From the NCBI GenBank assembly GCA_017466345.1, contig JAFTUI010000008.1, positions 1 to 32,571 of the forward strand: a stretch of 32,571 nt of DNA. Direction: 5' to 3'. This document shows positions 21,939-30,747 of the stretch, one piece after another (the stretch's first letter is position 1; every line of letters begins with the position of its first letter). Both the position numbers and the translations under genes were made by a program. This stretch comes from Tidjanibacter sp. GTDB lineage: Bacteria > Bacteroidota > Bacteroidia > Bacteroidales > Rikenellaceae. The notes below the pieces were generated by a model. It was given only the letters and a program-made list of their open reading frames with translations. It did no database searches and was not told the DNA's origin.

Positions 21939-23447
21939 ATGGGAAAATTTTGTTCTTCACTCACCCATTACGCTCGCCGCACCACCCGCCAAGTGAGCGT
22001 CAGGGGGCACAAAATAGGAGGCTTGGCACCCGTCTTGGTGCAGACGATGACCAACACCCGAACTCTCGACACCGAGGGCTCTGTGGCTCAGATTGAGGCT
22101 ATTGCCCGCTCGGGAGGCAAACTCGTAAGGCTCACAACACGCGATGAGCGTGAGGCTCAGAACCTTGCCCCCATCGGCGAAGGTGTGCGCCGCCACTTCC
22201 CCGATGTGGCACTTGTGGCGGATGTCCACTTTGTACCTCAGGTGGCAGCTGTTGCAGCAACCACAGCCGACAAGGTGCGTATCAACCCCGGCAACTACAA
22301 CGACCGAGGAGGCAAGTTCGAGGAGCTCATAGAGCTCTGCCGTGAGCGTGGCGTGGCACTCCGCATAGGTGTTAATCACGGTTCTCTGGCGAAGAAGATA
22401 TTTGACCTCTATGGCGACACCCCCGAGGGTATGGCGGCTTCGGCAATGGAGTTTTTGGAGCGTTGTCGCGAACTCGACTTCCACAATGTTGTCGTGTCGC
22501 TCAAATCGAGCAACGTGAGGGTTATGGTCTACGCCTACCGACTGCTTGTTAAGGCTATGGCGGAGGCGGGTATGGACTACCCCGTACACCTTGGCGTTAC
22601 CGAGGCGGGCAACCTCTTGGAGGGGCGTGTAAAGTCGGCAGTGGGCATTGGTGCCCTCTTGGCAGACGGCATTGGCGACACCATCCGCGTATCGCTCACC
22701 GAAGCCCCCGAGAACGAGATACCCGCCGCCCAAAAGCTCGTTGCACACTTCGCCTCGCGCCCCGAGGAGCACTTCCCCGAGGTCGATGAGTCGCTCTTTG
22801 CGGCATACGAATACACCCCACGCCCCTTTGGTACTACGCCCGTATTGTGGAGCGAGGTCGCCAATCCCGAAGAGTATGAGGTTGTGGAGGCTGTGAGCCA
22901 CCACCCCGTGCAGGAGTGGCGTAGCCGACTTGTAGGCTCTGCGCCCACCAAGCCCGTCATCCTCCACCGCCGCTACACCACCGCCAACCTCTACGACTTC
23001 GCCATTGAGGCGGCTGCCGACTTGGGCGTGATGTTCATCGACTCTCTGGCTGACGGCATACGCATCGAAAATCCCAACTTCTCGCAAGAGGAGATTGACG
23101 AGATAGCCCTACTTATTCTCCAAGCAGCCCGTGTGCGCATCTCTCGCACCGAGTATATCGCCTGCCCCTCGTGTGGCAGGACGCTCTACGACATCGAGAG
23201 TACATTGGCGGCAATCAAGGAGCGCACCTCGCACCTTGTAGGGCTGAAAATTGGCGTTATGGGCTGCATCGTGAACGGACCGGGCGAGATGGCAGATGCC
23301 GACTACGGCTACGTTGGCGGACTGCCCGACCATATATCGCTCTATCGTGGCAAAACCCTCGTGGAGCGCAACGTGCCCCAGGGGGAGGCAATAGACCGCC
23401 TTGTGGCACTCATCAAGGCTGACGGACGCTGGACTGATCCGAATTGA
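21939..23447 (+). CDS. ispG: 4-hydroxy-3-methylbut-2-enyl diphosphate synthase (MEP pathway)
   Basis: 502 residues. The TIM-barrel half begins near residue 17 (RQVSVRGHKIGG) and contains VQTMTNTRT, VADVHF and RINPGN. The C-terminal half carries the [4Fe-4S] ligands C409 and C412 (ACPSCG) and C443 (MGCIVNGPGE), plus E450, the usual fourth ligand/acid. It makes HMBPP from MEcPP in the cytoplasm, using reduced ferredoxin or flavodoxin. The central insertion between barrel and Fe-S domain (about 265-405) is present but shorter than the ~600-residue Bacteroidota/plant-type proteins I remember, and longer than the E. coli form (372). It supplies isoprenoid precursors for products such as that of the synthase at 1085. 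Confidence 0.95.
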   Translation: MGKFCSSLTHYARRTTRQVSVRGHKIGGLAPVLVQTMTNTRTLDTEGSVAQIEAIARSGGKLVRLTTRDEREAQNLAPIGEGVRRHFPDVALVADVHFVPQVAAVAATTADKVRINPGNYNDRGGKFEELIELCRERGVALRIGVNHGSLAKKIFDLYGDTPEGMAASAMEFLERCRELDFHNVVVSLKSSNVRVMVYAYRLLVKAMAEAGMDYPVHLGVTEAGNLLEGRVKSAVGIGALLADGIGDTIRVSLTEAPENEIPAAQKLVAHFASRPEEHFPEVDESLFAAYEYTPRPFGTTPVLWSEVANPEEYEVVEAVSHHPVQEWRSRLVGSAPTKPVILHRRYTTANLYDFAIEAAADLGVMFIDSLADGIRIENPNFSQEEIDEIALLILQAARVRISRTEYIACPSCGRTLYDIESTLAAIKERTSHLVGLKIGVMGCIVNGPGEMADADYGYVGGLPDHISLYRGKTLVERNVPQGEAIDRLVALIKADGRWTDPN

Positions 23448-25455: not shown

Positions 25456-26778
25456 TTACCACAACACCGCATCCACCGCAACGCCAAAGGTCAGGGGGTT
25501 GCGGTAGTCGTTCTGTTTGGTGTAGCTGCCATCGGGGAGGCTAAGGCTCCAATCGGTACGCAGGTAGTTGTAGTCGGCAAAAATCCTCACACCGAGGTTG
25601 TCGGCAACAATCCTGCGCAGCGACACACCCGCAACAGCGGTGAAGTGCTCGGTGGTAGAATAGTGCAGGGTTGCAAGAGGCTCTCCCGACTCGCCCACAA
25701 AGTCATTTTCGAGGTGTTGGTTTTGCGCCACACCCACCAGCACCTTTGCGCCCAAGTGAAAACGCTCATCCTTGCCAAGAGATTGATTGAGGAAGAGTCC
25801 CACCGCTACCGAGTGACTATTGAGCGGCTTAGGCTCGGCAATGGTGCCACCAGCAACCACCGCTCGCTCCACAATGTTGGCATAGCGTCCCACCTTAGCC
25901 ACGCCACCCACGCCAATTTTTGGGGTTACAAACCACGCGCCCTCAACGCTATATCCAATACCCGAGGGGGTTACTCGCTCGTAGCGGTCGGTGTCGTAGA
26001 GGAGTACGTTGTGGGCAATACCCACACCCACATACGAGGGCTTACGCCCCACACTCACAGGCTCCCATTCATCTACGGGGCGCACCAAACCCCTATTCTT
26101 AAAGAGTTTGTCGGCAATGAGGTATCCGAGTTCGGTGGAGAGTATTCCCACTCCCGCACCTACCACAATATCGCTCAGCCAATGGCGGTTATTGAGTGCT
26201 CGCGAGATGCCCGTGATGGTCGCTGCCGAATAGCCCGCAATGCTCACCCAGGGGCTAAGGTAGCCGTACTCCTTGTGGAGCAACGTGGCAGAGGTAAATG
26301 CCATAGCCGTATGTCCCGAGGGGAAGGAGTTATAGGTGGAGCCATCGGGACGCAACCTGCCAAGACCGTATTTCACAGCATAGACCGTTGAGAGCATAAC
26401 GCCCACCGAGAAACCCGAAGAGACAATCATACGCTCCCACGAGGAGCGACTCTCCACACCCAAAGTCTTCATCGCCACCATCGCCACCGCAGGCGCAAAT
26501 TGCAGATAATCATCGTATTTATAGCGGAAAGTGGGCAGATAATCACTACGGAGCGAGCGCGTTTGCAAATCGGCAGCCGAGAGCACCGCCCCCGCACCTA
26601 TGAGCCCAAAACCCACCTGCGTGGTGCGCAAATTCCAGAAGGTGTGCCCCTTCGTGGCCACATTGGATATGGTAGGTTGTTTAACAAGGGATATGCTATC
26701 CCTTGTTCCGTAATCGATTACGGACGCTCGCATCGGCATCGCAATTGCCAATAGCAAAACCATAATTATCTTTTTCAT
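25456..26778 (-). CDS. PAP2-family phosphatase fused to a C-terminal beta-barrel-like domain
   Basis: 440 residues from the ATG at 26778 (MKKIIMVLLLAIAMPMRA signal peptide); the upstream 35 residues of the longer frame are basic and repeat-derived. PAP2 motifs are complete: K136...R143-P (KYGLGRLRP), SFPSGHT with H156, and SR(192-193)-N-x-H199-x3-D203. Several hydrophobic segments span about 52-225. After about residue 245 the sequence changes to alternating amphipathic strands (YVGVGIAHNVLLY, VGGVAKVGRYANIV, HSVAVGLFLNQ, FHLGAKVLVGVAQ, NLGVRIFADYNYL) ending FGVAVDAVLW, like a barrel with a terminal aromatic. The reaction should be dephosphorylation of a lipid or diphosphate substrate on the periplasmic side; a lipid A or undecaprenyl role is possible but unproven. 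Confidence 0.88.
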   Translation of the reverse strand: MKKIIMVLLLAIAMPMRASVIDYGTRDSISLVKQPTISNVATKGHTFWNLRTTQVGFGLIGAGAVLSAADLQTRSLRSDYLPTFRYKYDDYLQFAPAVAMVAMKTLGVESRSSWERMIVSSGFSVGVMLSTVYAVKYGLGRLRPDGSTYNSFPSGHTAMAFTSATLLHKEYGYLSPWVSIAGYSAATITGISRALNNRHWLSDIVVGAGVGILSTELGYLIADKLFKNRGLVRPVDEWEPVSVGRKPSYVGVGIAHNVLLYDTDRYERVTPSGIGYSVEGAWFVTPKIGVGGVAKVGRYANIVERAVVAGGTIAEPKPLNSHSVAVGLFLNQSLGKDERFHLGAKVLVGVAQNQHLENDFVGESGEPLATLHYSTTEHFTAVAGVSLRRIVADNLGVRIFADYNYLRTDWSLSLPDGSYTKQNDYRNPLTFGVAVDAVLW

Positions 26779-26795
26779 ACTCTTCTTTTGCTTTC

Positions 26796-26817
26796 GCACC
26801 TTTTTGTAAAAAGGTGC
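26796..26817. other. 22-bp palindrome upstream of the PAP2 gene
   Basis: GCACCTTTTT (26796-26805) is the exact complement of AAAAAGGTGC (26808-26817) with only GT between. It lies 18 nt upstream of the PAP2 start codon, within its leader or promoter. It could be an operator, or a hairpin that controls the leader. No TAnnTTTG is seen nearby. Confidence 0.6.
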
Positions 26818-26844
26818 CCAAAAACTTTTAGTGTAGCCTTTGCG

Positions 26845-26955
26845 GTGAGGTGTGGCTATCTTCGCAGATAGTCTGGCAGCCAAAATAGCAGCCCTCTTTC
26901 AAACGAGTTTGAGAGGGCTACCATTTCGTCTGCCACTCTCCTTCGGAGAGCCTCA
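26845..26955. repeat. Cluster of small hairpins
   Basis: CTATCT-TCGC-AGATAG (about 26859-26874), GCCCTCT...AGAGGGC with TTCAAA/TTTGA (about 26889-26918) and a triloop CTCTCC-TTC-GGAGAG (26936-26950) lie within about 110 nt. No ORF or RNA-gene signature that I recognise. Confidence 0.6.
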
Positions 26956-27375: not shown

Positions 27376-27417
27376 CCGAATGAACTCGATACTCTCTTAG
27401 CGTATCGAGTTCATTCG
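27376..27417. repeat. 16-bp inverted repeat spanning the repressor stop codon
   Basis: CGAATGAACTCGATAC (27376-27391) is the perfect complement of GTATCGAGTTCATTCG (27402-27417). The right arm encodes the last residues of the S24 repressor (SIRMNSIR region) and the stop codon (27397-27399) is in the loop. A terminator or a recombination scar is possible; no T run follows. Confidence 0.85.
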
Positions 27418-28083
27418 GATGCTCGCCTTCACAAAGGCAAGCGCACGAATACGCTCAATCTCAATATCTTTGTCGGCGTGATGGGGGTTTTGGCTCACGA
27501 GCTTTATGCACCCTGGTCGCTCCGACTTATGGATGTATTTGACAGTCACATACTCCTCGCCTTCGAGGTCTATGGAGAGCAGATACATATCGCCCCAGAA
27601 GATGTTGCTCCAATCGTTCATCTGCTTGTAGAGGACAATGTCGCCGCTCTTCAACAAGGGGTACATACTGTCGCCCACAACATAAATCGCGCCATCGCAC
27701 TTGGGCAGATTGGGGATGTGGATGTAGTCTACGGGCTTAACCTTCGAGGGGTCCAAAAAGAGAGGCACCAAACCTGCGGTACCCTCCATATTATAGAGGG
27801 GCACACTCTGATGGGGTATGGTGTTGTCGGTGCGGAGGGTAAAACGCTGCCACTCCTCTTTGGGGCAGTTGAACATTTCGCCCTTGCCGGTGTCGAGCCA
27901 GTCGGGGTTTACATTCAATTCCTGAACTAATATATTTTTGTTTCTTTCCGAGAGTGCGCTCTTGTCGTTCTCTATCATCGAGAGGGCACTTTTGCCCACT
28001 CCGAGCACCGCCGCAAAGGCCTCTCCCGTCATTTCTAAATTTTTACGAATTCTCTTTACTCGTTGTCCCTTACTATCAGCCAT
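27397..28083 (-). CDS. CI/LexA-like repressor: helix-turn-helix plus S24 peptidase
   Basis: 228 residues. An XRE-type helix-turn-helix fills residues 5-55 (TGEAFAAVLGVGKSALSMIENDK). The C-terminal S24 self-cleaving domain has S139 (VGDSMYPLLKSGD) and K182 (YVTVKYIHK) as the catalytic dyad, and a candidate autocleavage bond A103-G104 in MEGTAGLVP. Such repressors cleave themselves when RecA filaments form, releasing the promoters they block. It is divergent from the Cys-rich protein and the terminase-muramidase gene, with interlocked promoters between, as in a phage lysis-lysogeny switch. It is shorter than many CI repressors but complete. Confidence 0.92.
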   Translation of the reverse strand: MADSKGQRVKRIRKNLEMTGEAFAAVLGVGKSALSMIENDKSALSERNKNILVQELNVNPDWLDTGKGEMFNCPKEEWQRFTLRTDNTIPHQSVPLYNMEGTAGLVPLFLDPSKVKPVDYIHIPNLPKCDGAIYVVGDSMYPLLKSGDIVLYKQMNDWSNIFWGDMYLLSIDLEGEEYVTVKYIHKSERPGCIKLVSQNPHHADKDIEIERIRALAFVKASIRMNSIR

Positions 28084-28120: not shown

Positions 28121-28150
28121 TTGTAAATTCAATTTTTGAACATACCTTTG
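28121..28150 (+). promoter_or_regulatory. Rightward promoter of the terminase unit
   Basis: TTG at 28121-28123 as -33, 19-nt spacer, -7 TACCTTTG at 28143-28150. Predicted start near 28156, about 58 nt before the ATG at 28215. It overlaps the repressor promoter. Confidence 0.75.
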
Positions 28151-28160
28151 TGGTGCAAAG
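28128..28160. promoter_or_regulatory. Candidate operator(s) of the S24 repressor
   Basis: Two inverted repeats lie within the promoter region: TTCAA-TTT-TTGAA (28128-28140), between -33 and -7 of the rightward promoter, and CTTTG-TGGTG-CAAAG (28146-28160), which spans both -7 octamers. A dimeric repressor bound at either would block both promoters. Assigned by symmetry and position only. Confidence 0.4.
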
Positions 28161-28187
28161 TTAAGAAATTTATTTCGATTGAACAAA
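28156..28187 (-). promoter_or_regulatory. Leftward promoter of the S24 repressor
   Basis: Minus strand: -33 TTTG (28187-28184), 20-nt spacer, -7 TAACTTTG (28163-28156). Predicted start near 28150, about 67 nt before the repressor ATG. The two promoters are oriented so that each -7 lies downstream of the other's, so both cannot be occupied at once. Confidence 0.75.
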
Positions 28188-28214: not shown

Positions 28215-28583
28215 ATGCACGAAAAAGACAAAACCCCACAGCGATTGTTCGGTTGTGCTGAACATACCGACCCACGCTCCGAGTTCAATTTCACAGATGA
28301 GGACTACACCCTTGTTTGGGAGTCGCTTCTTGGTGCCATTGGCGAGAGCAACTATTTCAGTGGCAAAATCCATACCGACCACGAGGGCTTCTGCTCGGTG
28401 CTGACCATCTCGGTGATAATCTACCGCGATAGGGAGCAGCCCGAATGTCCCGTTTGCGACATTGTGCCCATTTGGTGGCAAATGGCGACCTACTCCAACT
28501 TCGATGGCGAAGGCGAACTCTGCAAGGAGTGCCCCAACGACTTCGAGTTTTGCGACCTTAGGAGAGTCTGCAAAGGGAATTGA
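28215..28583 (+). CDS. 122-residue Cys-rich protein of unknown function
   Basis: Start chosen at the ATG at 28215; an upstream TTG at 28179 is also possible. Cysteines form C78-x2-C81 (CPVC) and C103-x2-C106 (CKEC), then C113 and C119, which could hold one zinc ion. W/Y-rich strands (SVIIYRDRE, VPIWWQMATY) suggest a small beta domain. It is the first gene after the repressor-controlled promoter and lies 115 nt before the terminase-muramidase gene. I do not recognise the family. The position resembles phage early genes or a small DNA-binding/adaptor partner (small terminase subunit), but no helix-turn-helix is evident. Confidence 0.7.
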   Translation: MHEKDKTPQRLFGCAEHTDPRSEFNFTDEDYTLVWESLLGAIGESNYFSGKIHTDHEGFCSVLTISVIIYRDREQPECPVCDIVPIWWQMATYSNFDGEGELCKECPNDFEFCDLRRVCKGN

Positions 28584-28698
28584 GAATTGAGAATTGAGAG
28601 TTGAGAGTTGAAAGTTTCCCATTTCTCCCATTTCTCCCATTTCTCCCATTTCTCTCATTATTCCCATTTCAATTTTGAATTTTGAATTTTGAATTCTT
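28584..28698. repeat. Heptamer and 9-nt-period array before the terminase gene
   Basis: AATTGAG/AGTTGAG heptamers (28582-28612), then CCCATTTCT nonamers (about 28618-28670), then AATTTTG heptamers up to the start codon at 28699. No promoter is visible, so the terminase gene is probably transcribed from 28143. Confidence 0.85.
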
Positions 28699-30747
28699 AT
28701 GACCTTTCTCGATTTCACATCTCGGATGTTTCCCTCGTTTAGGGCGACACCGTTCCACACCCGCTACTACGCACTTCTTCAAGCCTTTGCCGAGGGCAAG
28801 GTGCGCCGACTTATGATTACACTTCCCCCACAGCACGGCAAGTCGCTCGGCTCCTCGGTGGCTCTGCCTGCGTGGCTGCTGGGCAACAACCCCAACCTGC
28901 ACGTTGCCATAGCCTCTTATAGTGCCTCCTTGGCGCAGAAGTTCAATAAGAGGGTGCAGCGACTCATCGACTCGCCCGCCTACACCGACCTCTTTCCCGA
29001 CACCACCATCAAGGCATCAGGCCGCACGGGCTCCTACCAGCGCACCGGCGAACTAACGGAGATTGTGGGACATTCGGGCGACTTGGTGGCAGTTGGCAGG
29101 GAGGGCTCGCTGACGGGCAACCCTGTCGATGTATTTATTATTGATGACCTCTACAAAGACGCTATGGAGGCAAACTCTCCAACCGTGAGGGACAACTGCT
29201 GGGATTGGTACACCTCGGTGGTCCGCACCAGGGAGCACAACAACTCTCAGGAACTAATCGTCTTCACACGCTGGCACAAGGAGGACCTCATAGGTCGCAT
29301 AATGCAGAAAGAGAGGGTGGTAGAACTCCGTGAGTGGAGCCAACTCGACACCATAAAGTCCAACGAGTGGCTCCACCTAAACCTCGAAGCCCTCAAAACC
29401 ACCCCCGCCACCGAACTCGACCCCCGCGAGGTGGGCGAGGCGTTGTGGGAGGAGCGACACTCGGCAGAACTCCTCAGGGAGAAGCAGCGACTCGACACTC
29501 TGCAATTCGAGGCTATGTATCAAGGTCGTCCCTCGGATGCTGCGGGTCTGCTCTATGGCGACAACTTTAAGACATACACCGTTCTGCCAAAATCCACCGA
29601 GGTTACTCGCAAGGCAAACTACACCGACACTGCCGATACGGGAGATGACTACCTCTGCTCGGTCAGCTACTCGGTGGGATTAGACGGGGATATCTACATC
29701 GAAGATGTGGTCTATTCGCGTGAGAAGATGGAGATTACCGAGCCGCTTGTTGCGAAGATGCTCACCGAGCGGGGCACCCGCGAGGCACTCATCGAGAGCA
29801 ACAATGGTGGCAGGGGCTTTGCCCGCAATGTGGGACGACTTGCCCCGGGTTGCTCGGTGGCGTGGTTTCACCAGAGTGCCAACAAGGAGGCCCGCATACT
29901 CTCCAACGCCTCCACAGTTCTGCGCACCATCCGTATGCCCATAGATTGGAAGGAGCGATGGGGCGATTGGGCGGCACACCTTATGGGCTACAACCGCCGC
30001 TTCCGCACCAACCGCTGGCACGATGCGGCAGATGTGCTGACGGGCATTGTCGAGTGCGAGGTTGGACGCACGCTCCGCAAACGAATACTCAGCACGGGCT
30101 TTTCGGTACGCAACTGTGTTCGCCCCAAGGAGCCACCCAAGCCACCCCAACGCCTCACGGATGAGGACTTCCGCAGGGCTGCCGAGAGCCTTGGCGTGGA
30201 AGAGGCTGCGCTGAGGGCTGTGGTGGAGGTGGAGTGCTCCTCCAAGGGCGGTTTCCTTGCGGACGGCAGACCCCGAATACTCTTCGAGGGGCACATCTTC
30301 TGGCAGAGGCTCCAAAGGCGAGGCATAGACCCCTCCACACTCGCCACCTCCAACCCCGACATCCTCTATCCCCGTTGGACACGCACCCATTACAAAGGTG
30401 GCAAAGGCGAGTGGGAGCGTTTTGGGCGTGCGGCGGCGATATGCGAGAGTGCGGCTGTGGAGTCGGCAAGTTGGGGACTGTTTCAGATTATGGGATTTCA
30501 TTGGAAGACCTGCGGTTGCGGCTCGGCAGAGGAGTTCCGCAGGGCTATGGAGCGCAGCGAGGGGGAGCAATTGAGGTTAGCGATGAAATTTCTCGAAAAA
30601 ACGGGTATTGCGGTGTATCTTAAAACAAAAGATTGGTGTACCTTTGCACTCAGATACAACGGTAGCGGATATAAGGCTAATCGCTATGACGAAAAACTCG
30701 CCGCCGCCTACCGCAAATTCAAAGAGCAAGAAGAGAAGACCGCATAA
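28699..30747 (+). CDS. Phage terminase large subunit fused to an N-acetylmuramidase domain
   Basis: 682 residues. The ATPase part (about 15-200) has Walker A PPQHGKS (43-49) and Walker B VFIIDD (145-150) of the TerL family, with a coupling motif FTRWH (189-193). The RNase-H-like nuclease part (about 300-455) has D310 (TDTADTGDDY), E366 (ALIESNNGG) and D442/D445 (RWHDAAD). A proline-rich linker (PKEPPKPPQ, 477-485) leads to a muramidase domain (about 487-675): FRRAAESLGVEEAALRAVVEVE with E512 as likely catalytic acid, RPRILFEGHIFW (525-535), SASWGLFQIMG (589-599), DWCTFALRYNG. All catalytic residues look intact and there is no frameshift in the joint. TerL packages DNA into proheads; muramidases lyse peptidoglycan. 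I know of no standard TerL carrying a lysin. Confidence 0.9.
   Translation: MTFLDFTSRMFPSFRATPFHTRYYALLQAFAEGKVRRLMITLPPQHGKSLGSSVALPAWLLGNNPNLHVAIASYSASLAQKFNKRVQRLIDSPAYTDLFPDTTIKASGRTGSYQRTGELTEIVGHSGDLVAVGREGSLTGNPVDVFIIDDLYKDAMEANSPTVRDNCWDWYTSVVRTREHNNSQELIVFTRWHKEDLIGRIMQKERVVELREWSQLDTIKSNEWLHLNLEALKTTPATELDPREVGEALWEERHSAELLREKQRLDTLQFEAMYQGRPSDAAGLLYGDNFKTYTVLPKSTEVTRKANYTDTADTGDDYLCSVSYSVGLDGDIYIEDVVYSREKMEITEPLVAKMLTERGTREALIESNNGGRGFARNVGRLAPGCSVAWFHQSANKEARILSNASTVLRTIRMPIDWKERWGDWAAHLMGYNRRFRTNRWHDAADVLTGIVECEVGRTLRKRILSTGFSVRNCVRPKEPPKPPQRLTDEDFRRAAESLGVEEAALRAVVEVECSSKGGFLADGRPRILFEGHIFWQRLQRRGIDPSTLATSNPDILYPRWTRTHYKGGKGEWERFGRAAAICESAAVESASWGLFQIMGFHWKTCGCGSAEEFRRAMERSEGEQLRLAMKFLEKTGIAVYLKTKDWCTFALRYNGSGYKANRYDEKLAAAYRKFKEQEEKTA
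30639..30646 (+). promoter_or_regulatory. Possible internal promoter for the U32 gene
   Basis: TACCTTTG matches the -7 consensus inside the last 110 nt of the terminase-muramidase gene. No good -33 is seen at 19-21 nt, so this is tentative. It could keep the U32 gene expressed when the repressor-controlled promoter is off. Confidence 0.35.

Follow-up and report, generated by a model that had tools for sequence, protein, structure and literature searches.

A terminase-muramidase fusion gene in Tidjanibacter as a probable component of a domesticated, gene transfer agent-like particle of Rikenellaceae

Why would a DNA-packaging motor and a cell wall-cutting enzyme be made as one polypeptide? This question is raised by a gene in 32,571 nt of Tidjanibacter sp. 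(Rikenellaceae), contig JAFTUI010000008.1, hereafter referred to as the window (its own genome is labelled G000), in which a large terminase subunit (TerL) reads in frame into an N-acetylmuramidase. Our analysis of this gene and its relatives makes it likely that the encoded large terminase serves a phage-like particle that has been domesticated, is inherited vertically and is most probably a gene transfer agent (GTA). This particle would be core to Rikenellaceae, its terminase having become fused to its endolysin in one clade. The gene and its parts, all on the + strand, are as follows, with the evidence on which each assignment is based, including the ratio of nonsynonymous to synonymous substitution rates (dN/dS).

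28699-30747, + strand: TerL-muramidase fusion gene, one open reading frame (ORF) with ATG at 28699 and stop codon at 30745-30747, 682 aa
28699..30123, + strand: TerL part (ATPase and nuclease), residues 1-475 (phrog_38, PF03237, invariant motif residues, dN/dS)
30124..30150, + strand: proline-rich linker (fused rows compared side by side)
30151..30747, + strand: N-acetylmuramidase part (PF11860), residues 485-682 and the stop codon (PF11860, solved endolysins, dN/dS)

The original prediction, made by motif reading, of a single intact 682-residue frame that joins a TerL to a muramidase of the DUF3380 type was confirmed by database searches, the ORF being open and both domains complete. In a Pfam search with the fusion protein, Terminase_6N (PF03237) was found at residues 39-227 (E-value (E) 7e-9) and Muramidase PF11860 at residues 503-675 (E 1e-65), the latter as a full-length domain with 221.5 bits vs. 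a curated cut-off of 22.3. In PHROGs, the TerL family phrog_38 spans residues 3-460 (E 4e-84) and the endolysin family phrog_1224 residues 482-680 (E 4e-75), and NCBIfam TIGR01630 matches residues 317-451. The Walker A motif (PPQHGKS, 43-49), Walker B (D149-D150) and the nuclease acids D310, E366 and D442, which had been described as intact, are invariant in a 20-row alignment that includes the TerL of phage AS73P1; the Walker A/B ATPase and the RNase H-type nuclease acids of a TerL are thus both present. The muramidase part matches the solved endolysins 7q4s (E 2e-42), 5nm7 and 7rum and is a predicted peptidoglycan-cutting enzyme of the PF11860 family. The two parts are separated by the expected proline-rich linker, PKEPPKPPQ (residues ~475-484), the length of which varies between fused genomes with the frame always kept. 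Since no start codon in frame near the joint is common to all seven fused genes known to us (the window has only a GTG at residue 500, within the muramidase half), the muramidase is unlikely to be made as a separate product. No other PF11860 gene was found in the window's genome, where this one is visible on both of two overlapping contig ends.

The position of the gene near a contig end and its repetition on another contig would be compatible with an assembly or frame error. The last 5,511 bases of the window recur near the start of contig C17 with 99.96% identity (2 mismatches), so that the fusion has a second full match, which probably reflects overlapping contig ends, and hence one locus rather than two copies. 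A search of 24 genomes of the same genus, 23 of which gave a match, nevertheless revealed the complete fusion without internal stops in seven (G000, G053, G092, G094, G096, G102 and G106), the six other copies being 77-82% identical to that of the window. Because these seven genomes carry the fusion in frame, the concern attached to the original prediction, that the gene is an assembly join and its homologues are always separate, is contradicted. The fusion is also found on five named contigs of metagenome-assembled genomes (L083-L087); judging by their agreeing sequences of TerL and of c1, a small gene that precedes it, these contigs seem to come from the assemblies of five of the above genomes. 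For close pairs picked by hand, dN/dS was 0.05-0.19 in TerL (9 pairs) and 0.12-0.24 in the muramidase part (4 pairs), and it was below 0.35 in all pairs taken (9 pairs); both parts of the fusion are under purifying selection. The seven in-frame copies and the low dN/dS of the muramidase half leave a negligible probability to an error of assembly or frame. The query is matched by 2,279 phage records, all of which fall short of 80% coverage at any single place. As a separate observation, TerL in two genomes (G041:C3:18459-19982 and G069:C31:6249-7763) contains an in-frame insertion of ~145-150 bases near residue 215, in the central part of the protein, giving open frames of 734 and 718 aa.

Matches to the TerL query occur in 135 of 151 Rikenellaceae genomes, which include 96 of the 100 good ones and cover 18 of the 22 genera; outside the family, in a sample of Bacteroidales, the best match is 46% identical. 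The sampled genomes of genera g2, g10, g12 and g21 are without the set. Besides TerL, the family carries a head operon, for which the order c12, c9, c5, c4, c6, protease, capsid-like protein, c8, portal, DUF6712 and, often, holin is a composite, as not every gene was recognised at every locus. The head protease is of the ClpP type (phrog_94, E 5e-32), with S100, H125 and D149 invariant in 13 rows, and matches were also obtained for the capsid-like (virion) protein (phrog_1623, E 5e-7), the portal (phrog_11226, E 2e-16), DUF6712 (PF20459, E 3e-12) and the holin (PF05105, E 2e-10). Portal PF04860 was detected in 48 of 61 genomes (35 of 38 good ones), mostly with E 1e-7 to 1e-13 and in ORFs of ~400-500 aa; the best solved match of the portal profile is weak (RcGTA portal 6te8, E 0.09). 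The capsid profile was found in 132 of the 151 Rikenellaceae (96 of 100 good genomes, 17 of 22 genera), with a single match in 129 of these 132. In 198 Bacteroidales it matched five genomes: three belong to Rikenellaceae, and the other two gave a partial or weak match (G278, E 1e-43 with 96 positions covered; G244, E 3e-7). At E 1e-15 it was present in one of 392 sampled Bacteroidota, namely the window's own genome. There, TerL lies on C26/C17 and the head operon on C11 (capsid 35151-36149), where it is followed by rimP-nusA-IF2, i.e., the genes form more than one dispersed operon. Alignments A1, A2 (S24, 19 rows), A3 (TerL, 20 rows) and A6 are hand-picked subsets, A7 (c1) took 42 of 51 listed rows from a list that excluded rows of at least 150 aa, and the TerL rows of L102 and L117 (reading past the stop) and the capsid row of L233 (cut by the locus end; 15 of 16 rows used in A4) were left out. 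Two further matches were seen alongside this set. G000:C14:152078-153046 is a strong HK97-type portal of the ordinary phage kind (E 2e-98) and probably marks a true prophage, present in the window's genome in addition to the domesticated set; G102, a genome of the fused clade, has a second, more distant capsid match (C22:2918-3853, E 2.5e-102) besides its C84 copy.

TerL and the head genes behave as one system. Over the 151 genomes, TerL and capsid are both present in 129 and both absent in 13, with TerL alone in 6 and capsid alone in 3 (Fisher p 7e-12, a value partly due to incomplete genomes). In 23 genomes, TerL distances track those of the capsid (r 0.79) and of the portal (r 0.86, with the portal rows of G108 and G065 partial), and none of 2,000 permutations reached values as high; genera group together. 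TerL, protease, capsid and portal adjoin in genera g8 and g14 (L229-L231; the protease is more distant in L227), and in G100 a single contig (L275) holds TerL, c1, S24, rnhB, c9, c5, c4, c6, protease, capsid, c8, portal, DUF6712, holin and endolysin. Packaging and head genes of phage origin are fixed in Rikenellaceae chromosomes, and their near-universal presence, together with the correlated TerL, capsid and portal distances, indicates vertical inheritance across the family. Based on the co-occurrence and on the adjacency in g8 and g14, TerL may work with a portal-bearing head.

The end of the head operon points to a role for the muramidase. In all 12 loci of the muramidase clade (G000, G053, G076, G080, G086, G088, G092, G094, G096, G098, G102 and G106), DUF6712 and holin are followed directly by host rimP, which was named by profile in G000 only, with no endolysin. 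Elsewhere, an endolysin of phrog_873 stands behind the holin (G083, G100 and G022; E 2e-39, 3e-37 and 5e-39), or the holin is accompanied by an SLT-type transglycosylase (PF01464, E 1e-10 in the G008-type L254; phrog matches in L237) and a spanin-like lipoprotein (G008, G057). Few members of the family have PF11860 at all: it was matched in 11 of 101 genomes, 9 of which belong to the window's genus. With the endolysin missing behind the holin at every one of the 12 loci, the muramidase is most likely the particle's lysis enzyme; most likely, on this pattern, it took over the endolysin role and was later fused to TerL. Among the 31 genomes in which the operon end was read, 17 have a holin match, with endolysin or muramidase in part of these. 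A genus subgroup (L277 of G065, L271 of G019, L280 of G037, L243 of G059, L244 of G045 and L278 of G071) shows neither holin nor endolysin behind DUF6712, possibly through decay or relocation of the lysis genes; L277 has, in addition, a portal gene divided over different reading frames and two-piece matches for both DUF6712 and c4.

How the two genes came to be joined can be read from unfused relatives. The neighbouring features in the window are the following.

25456..26883, - strand: PAP2-domain gene (PF01569, E 3e-14), moved with the inverted block described below and not claimed as a working part
27397..28083, - strand: divergent helix-turn-helix (HTH) and S24 repressor (PF00717, E 2e-12; PF12844, E 9e-11)
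28126..28168, + strand: conserved promoter/operator-like element between repressor and c1, with palindrome TTCAAnnnTTGAA at 28128-28140
28215..28583, + strand: c1, small gene before TerL with a ~95-aa core, recurring at TerL loci

In the unfused relatives (L088, L089, L091 with L135, L092 with L136), TerL and c1 lie on one strand and S24, the PAP2 gene and a stand-alone muramidase of 194-196 aa on the other, with peptidase U32 next (more distant in L088); the PAP2 gene sits between repressor and stand-alone muramidase in L088, L089, L135 and L136. In the fused genomes, the block PAP2-S24-c1-TerL is reversed and TerL reads into the muramidase. U32 comes after the fusion in the window, L083-L086 and L282; L087 gave no U32 match at that place. 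Both gene orders and the end-to-end fusion are explained by inversion of this block, which, we infer, brought the 3' end of TerL in front of the stand-alone muramidase gene. A single fusion event suffices, as the seven genomes with the fusion cluster together in both trees (support 0.92 with capsid and portal, 0.64 with TerL); the wider group of 12, which adds the relatives with a stand-alone muramidase, has support of 0.998 and 1.0 in the two trees. Apart from this, the window has at 21939-23447 a GcpE/IspG-like ORF of 502 aa that matches its family in two stretches and is possibly an altered or frame-interrupted copy.

The S24 repressor was found at 50 of 52 TerL loci and c1 at 49 (L083-L134); two of the loci stop at a contig edge, and L127 is without detectable c1. 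The repressor has a mean column identity of 79% over 19 rows, nearly all of which keep the Ala-Gly site, Ser139 and Lys182 (L181 is the exception for the dyad), features that would serve repressor self-cleavage. Its HTH resembles those of the 434 and P22 repressors, and its closest relatives outside Rikenellaceae in the Bacteroidales sample score about half the bits. Searched against 198 Bacteroidales genomes, the c1 profile matched three, each of them from Rikenellaceae, and a model of the L104 c1 made with AlphaFold2 (AF2; predicted local distance difference test (pLDDT) 94) gave no clear fold match. The element with palindrome TTCAAnnnTTGAA between S24 and c1 was located in 50 of the 52 loci. 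Related palindromes precede the head operon, in the window's genome GTTCAGAAATTGAAC ~33 bases ahead of the first gene (Fisher p 2e-5 over 18 loci, 8 of which are individually below 0.07), while a 25-base profile of the TerL promoter failed to pick out head operons. Because similar palindromes precede both operons, these putative operators suggest common control of the TerL cassette and the head operon. Between c1 and TerL (28584-28698) the window holds short tandem-like repeats, TTGAGAATTGAGAGTTGAGAG and CCCATTTCTCCC, and the contigs of some relatives break beside TerL.

From these genes we infer that particles are formed upon DNA damage, package host DNA, as the precedent of GTAs suggests, and transfer it, and that the fusion is used in lysis. 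The S24 repressor would be relieved, presumably by self-cleavage after DNA damage, and the c1-TerL(-muramidase) transcript and the head operon would then switch on together. The TerL half would dock on portal-bearing heads and fill them with DNA, the holin would open the inner membrane, and the muramidase half would cut the peptidoglycan so that the particles could be released. Since large endolysin fusions pass lambda holin lesions, passage of a fusion of this size through holin holes to the wall is plausible, and fusion of the muramidase to TerL is best read as a means of co-production. With somewhat less assurance than for the nature of the gene itself, we favour the wider proposal that a GTA, to the extent of our searches the first in Bacteroidota, is part of the core equipment of Rikenellaceae, and that in one clade the motor is a bifunctional packaging-and-lysis enzyme, filling motor and cell opener being made as one molecule. 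Of the functions offered with the original prediction, a packaging motor acting at or delivered to the cell wall finds no support, as nothing places packaging at the wall, and neither does a satellite's combined tool, given that TerL co-occurs with a family-wide portal, head protease and capsid-like protein, and with a holin in this clade. The proposal of a domesticated DNA-handling enzyme holds as regards domestication; a lone enzyme is at odds with the co-occurrence of TerL and the family-wide head gene set.

A number of findings weigh against a GTA-like particle and its lytic terminase. No tail tube or tape-measure gene was recognised in the loci read, c1 does not look like a small terminase, and c4, c5, c9 and c12 are conserved and match no named family (the comparison with solved structures covered c4, c9 and c12). 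The AF2 model of the capsid has a pLDDT of 48.5, at which the HK97 fold was not confirmed, and the genome with the partial capsid match, G278, belongs to another Bacteroidales family. The 135 TerL matches include a few fragments or phage-like sequences (G023, G075, G014), TerL is broken in G072 and the portal is frame-broken in G065 (L277). No holin match was found in 14 of the 31 genomes with the operon end read (G007, G013, G018, G019, G027, G028, G036, G037, G040, G045, G049, G059, G065 and G071), possibly owing to decay, divergent holins or lysis genes elsewhere, and G098, a member of the muramidase clade with an unfused TerL in an assembly of 320 contigs, is without a PF11860 match. The support for the fused clade in the TerL tree is moderate, the operator test is modest for individual loci, and on a phage-like contig, G035:C84, a B40-8 type portal stands next to a TerL that shares 56% identity with the query.

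Some of these points would fit a domesticated capsid and lysis system without gene transfer, i.e., a damage-induced program of particles and lysis serving competition, cargo release or phage defence, for example with host TerL and heads competing with infecting phages. The lack of recognised tail genes and the S24-type repressor, suggestive of a damage response, speak for it, and it fits the same conservation data; the retention of the portal and of the ATPase and nuclease motifs in TerL, however, points to active DNA packaging, and PADLOC gave no match for TerL or c1, so that we consider such a system rather unlikely. Considerably less probable is that the genes are ordinary prophages or remnants acquired many times and the fusion an accident of decay. 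The gene content is indeed phage-like, TerL is 50% identical to that of Bacteroides phage B40-8, and the missing holin matches and broken portal just mentioned could be signs of decay. This is difficult to reconcile with presence in 96 of 100 good genomes, a single capsid match in 129 of 132, correlated distances with genera grouping together, low dN/dS and a head operon that runs into rimP-nusA-IF2 in the window's genome. Because the G035 contig carries a TerL 56% identical to the query, close phage TerLs do exist, and that contig is perhaps a free phage close to the source of TerL; the B40-8 type portal was found in 2 of 61 genomes. As for integrase or replication genes, none were noticed in the flanks read, where rimP, nusA, IF-2 and rnhB are located; whole genomes were not searched for them. 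We give equally little credence to the S24-c1-TerL(-muramidase) cassette acting alone as a DNA-degrading, lysing suicide system. TerL nucleases are able to cut DNA without heads and the cassette stands apart from the head operon in many genomes, yet TerL and capsid are jointly present or absent in 142 of 151 genomes, and in g8 and g14 TerL and the head genes form one cluster.

Searches of virus collections are consistent with a chromosomal, domesticated particle. Among 50,697 phage records searched with capsid, portal and c4, at E 1e-5, the capsid was matched by one 7.4-kb faecal fragment, the portal by two fragments and c4 by one, and no phage record besides such faecal fragments has this head set. 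Instead of the sporadic presence and related free phages of a prophage, we thus found near-universal presence in the family and matches to faecal fragments only. Nine short IMG/VR contigs carry parts of the head set. In one of them (L254, 12.9 kb), the head operon lies between rnhB and a NUDIX gene (NudE-like) and the proteins are 99% identical to those of Rikenellaceae G008; because of these host-gene flanks and this identity we read L254 as chromosomal, and likely a GTA-like cluster misfiled as a virus. The faecal 'Bacteriophage sp.' record MT838736 may be a similar case. The IMG/VR contigs L255-L262 hold capsid relatives 43-54% identical, mostly in the same gene order and, in L255 and L257-L260, followed by the endolysin motif NPGNIR. 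The muramidase part is 41-54% identical to copies on 80 viral contigs kept for comparison.

If our reading is correct, common gut bacteria (Alistipes and relatives) possess an unreported, family-wide route of DNA transfer, and it becomes testable whether capsid-carried host DNA in the gut also stems from dedicated agents in Bacteroidota. A natural terminase-endolysin fusion is, moreover, useful for asking how packaging and lysis couple, and virus catalogues probably list such clusters as viruses, as suggested by the position of L254 between host genes. Searches of the PMC literature, a scope that leaves preprints and most subscription papers outside, brought up neither a GTA described from Rikenellaceae or Alistipes nor a described TerL-muramidase fusion.

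Among known systems, the TerLs of phrog_38/Terminase_6 phages (Bacteroides phage B40-8, Alistipes phage AS73P1) share the motifs at 42-50% identity, whereas the TerL of Rikenellaceae is chromosomal and family-wide and in one clade bears a C-terminal enzyme. The whole domain of the PF11860 endolysins (7q4s, 5nm7, 7rum) is present, but fused behind a terminase. Prophage remnants likewise place phage genes within a bacterial chromosome; the Rikenellaceae set differs from them in being near-universal, with one capsid match in 129 of 132 genomes, purifying selection and distances correlated between loci. The closest parallel is provided by GTAs. In RcGTA of Rhodobacter and CcGTA of Caulobacter, phage-derived head and packaging genes are fixed in the chromosome in several operons, with lysis genes. 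FpGTA of Faecalibacterium is described in PMC12946183 as split between two loci, the second of which contains holin and endolysin; the paper attributes GTA activity to Oscillospiraceae and Ruminococcaceae, and lateral transduction to Bacteroides, and its main text does not mention Alistipes. As in these three GTAs, phage-derived TerL, portal, protease and capsid are chromosomal in Rikenellaceae and in more than one operon, with lysis-gene matches in part of the genomes. Unlike them, the Rikenellaceae set occurs in another phylum, with a TerL 50% identical to that of B40-8, an S24 repressor, no recognised tail genes and a TerL welded to an endolysin. It is GTA-like by gene content and inheritance, and differs by its phylum and its fused enzyme.

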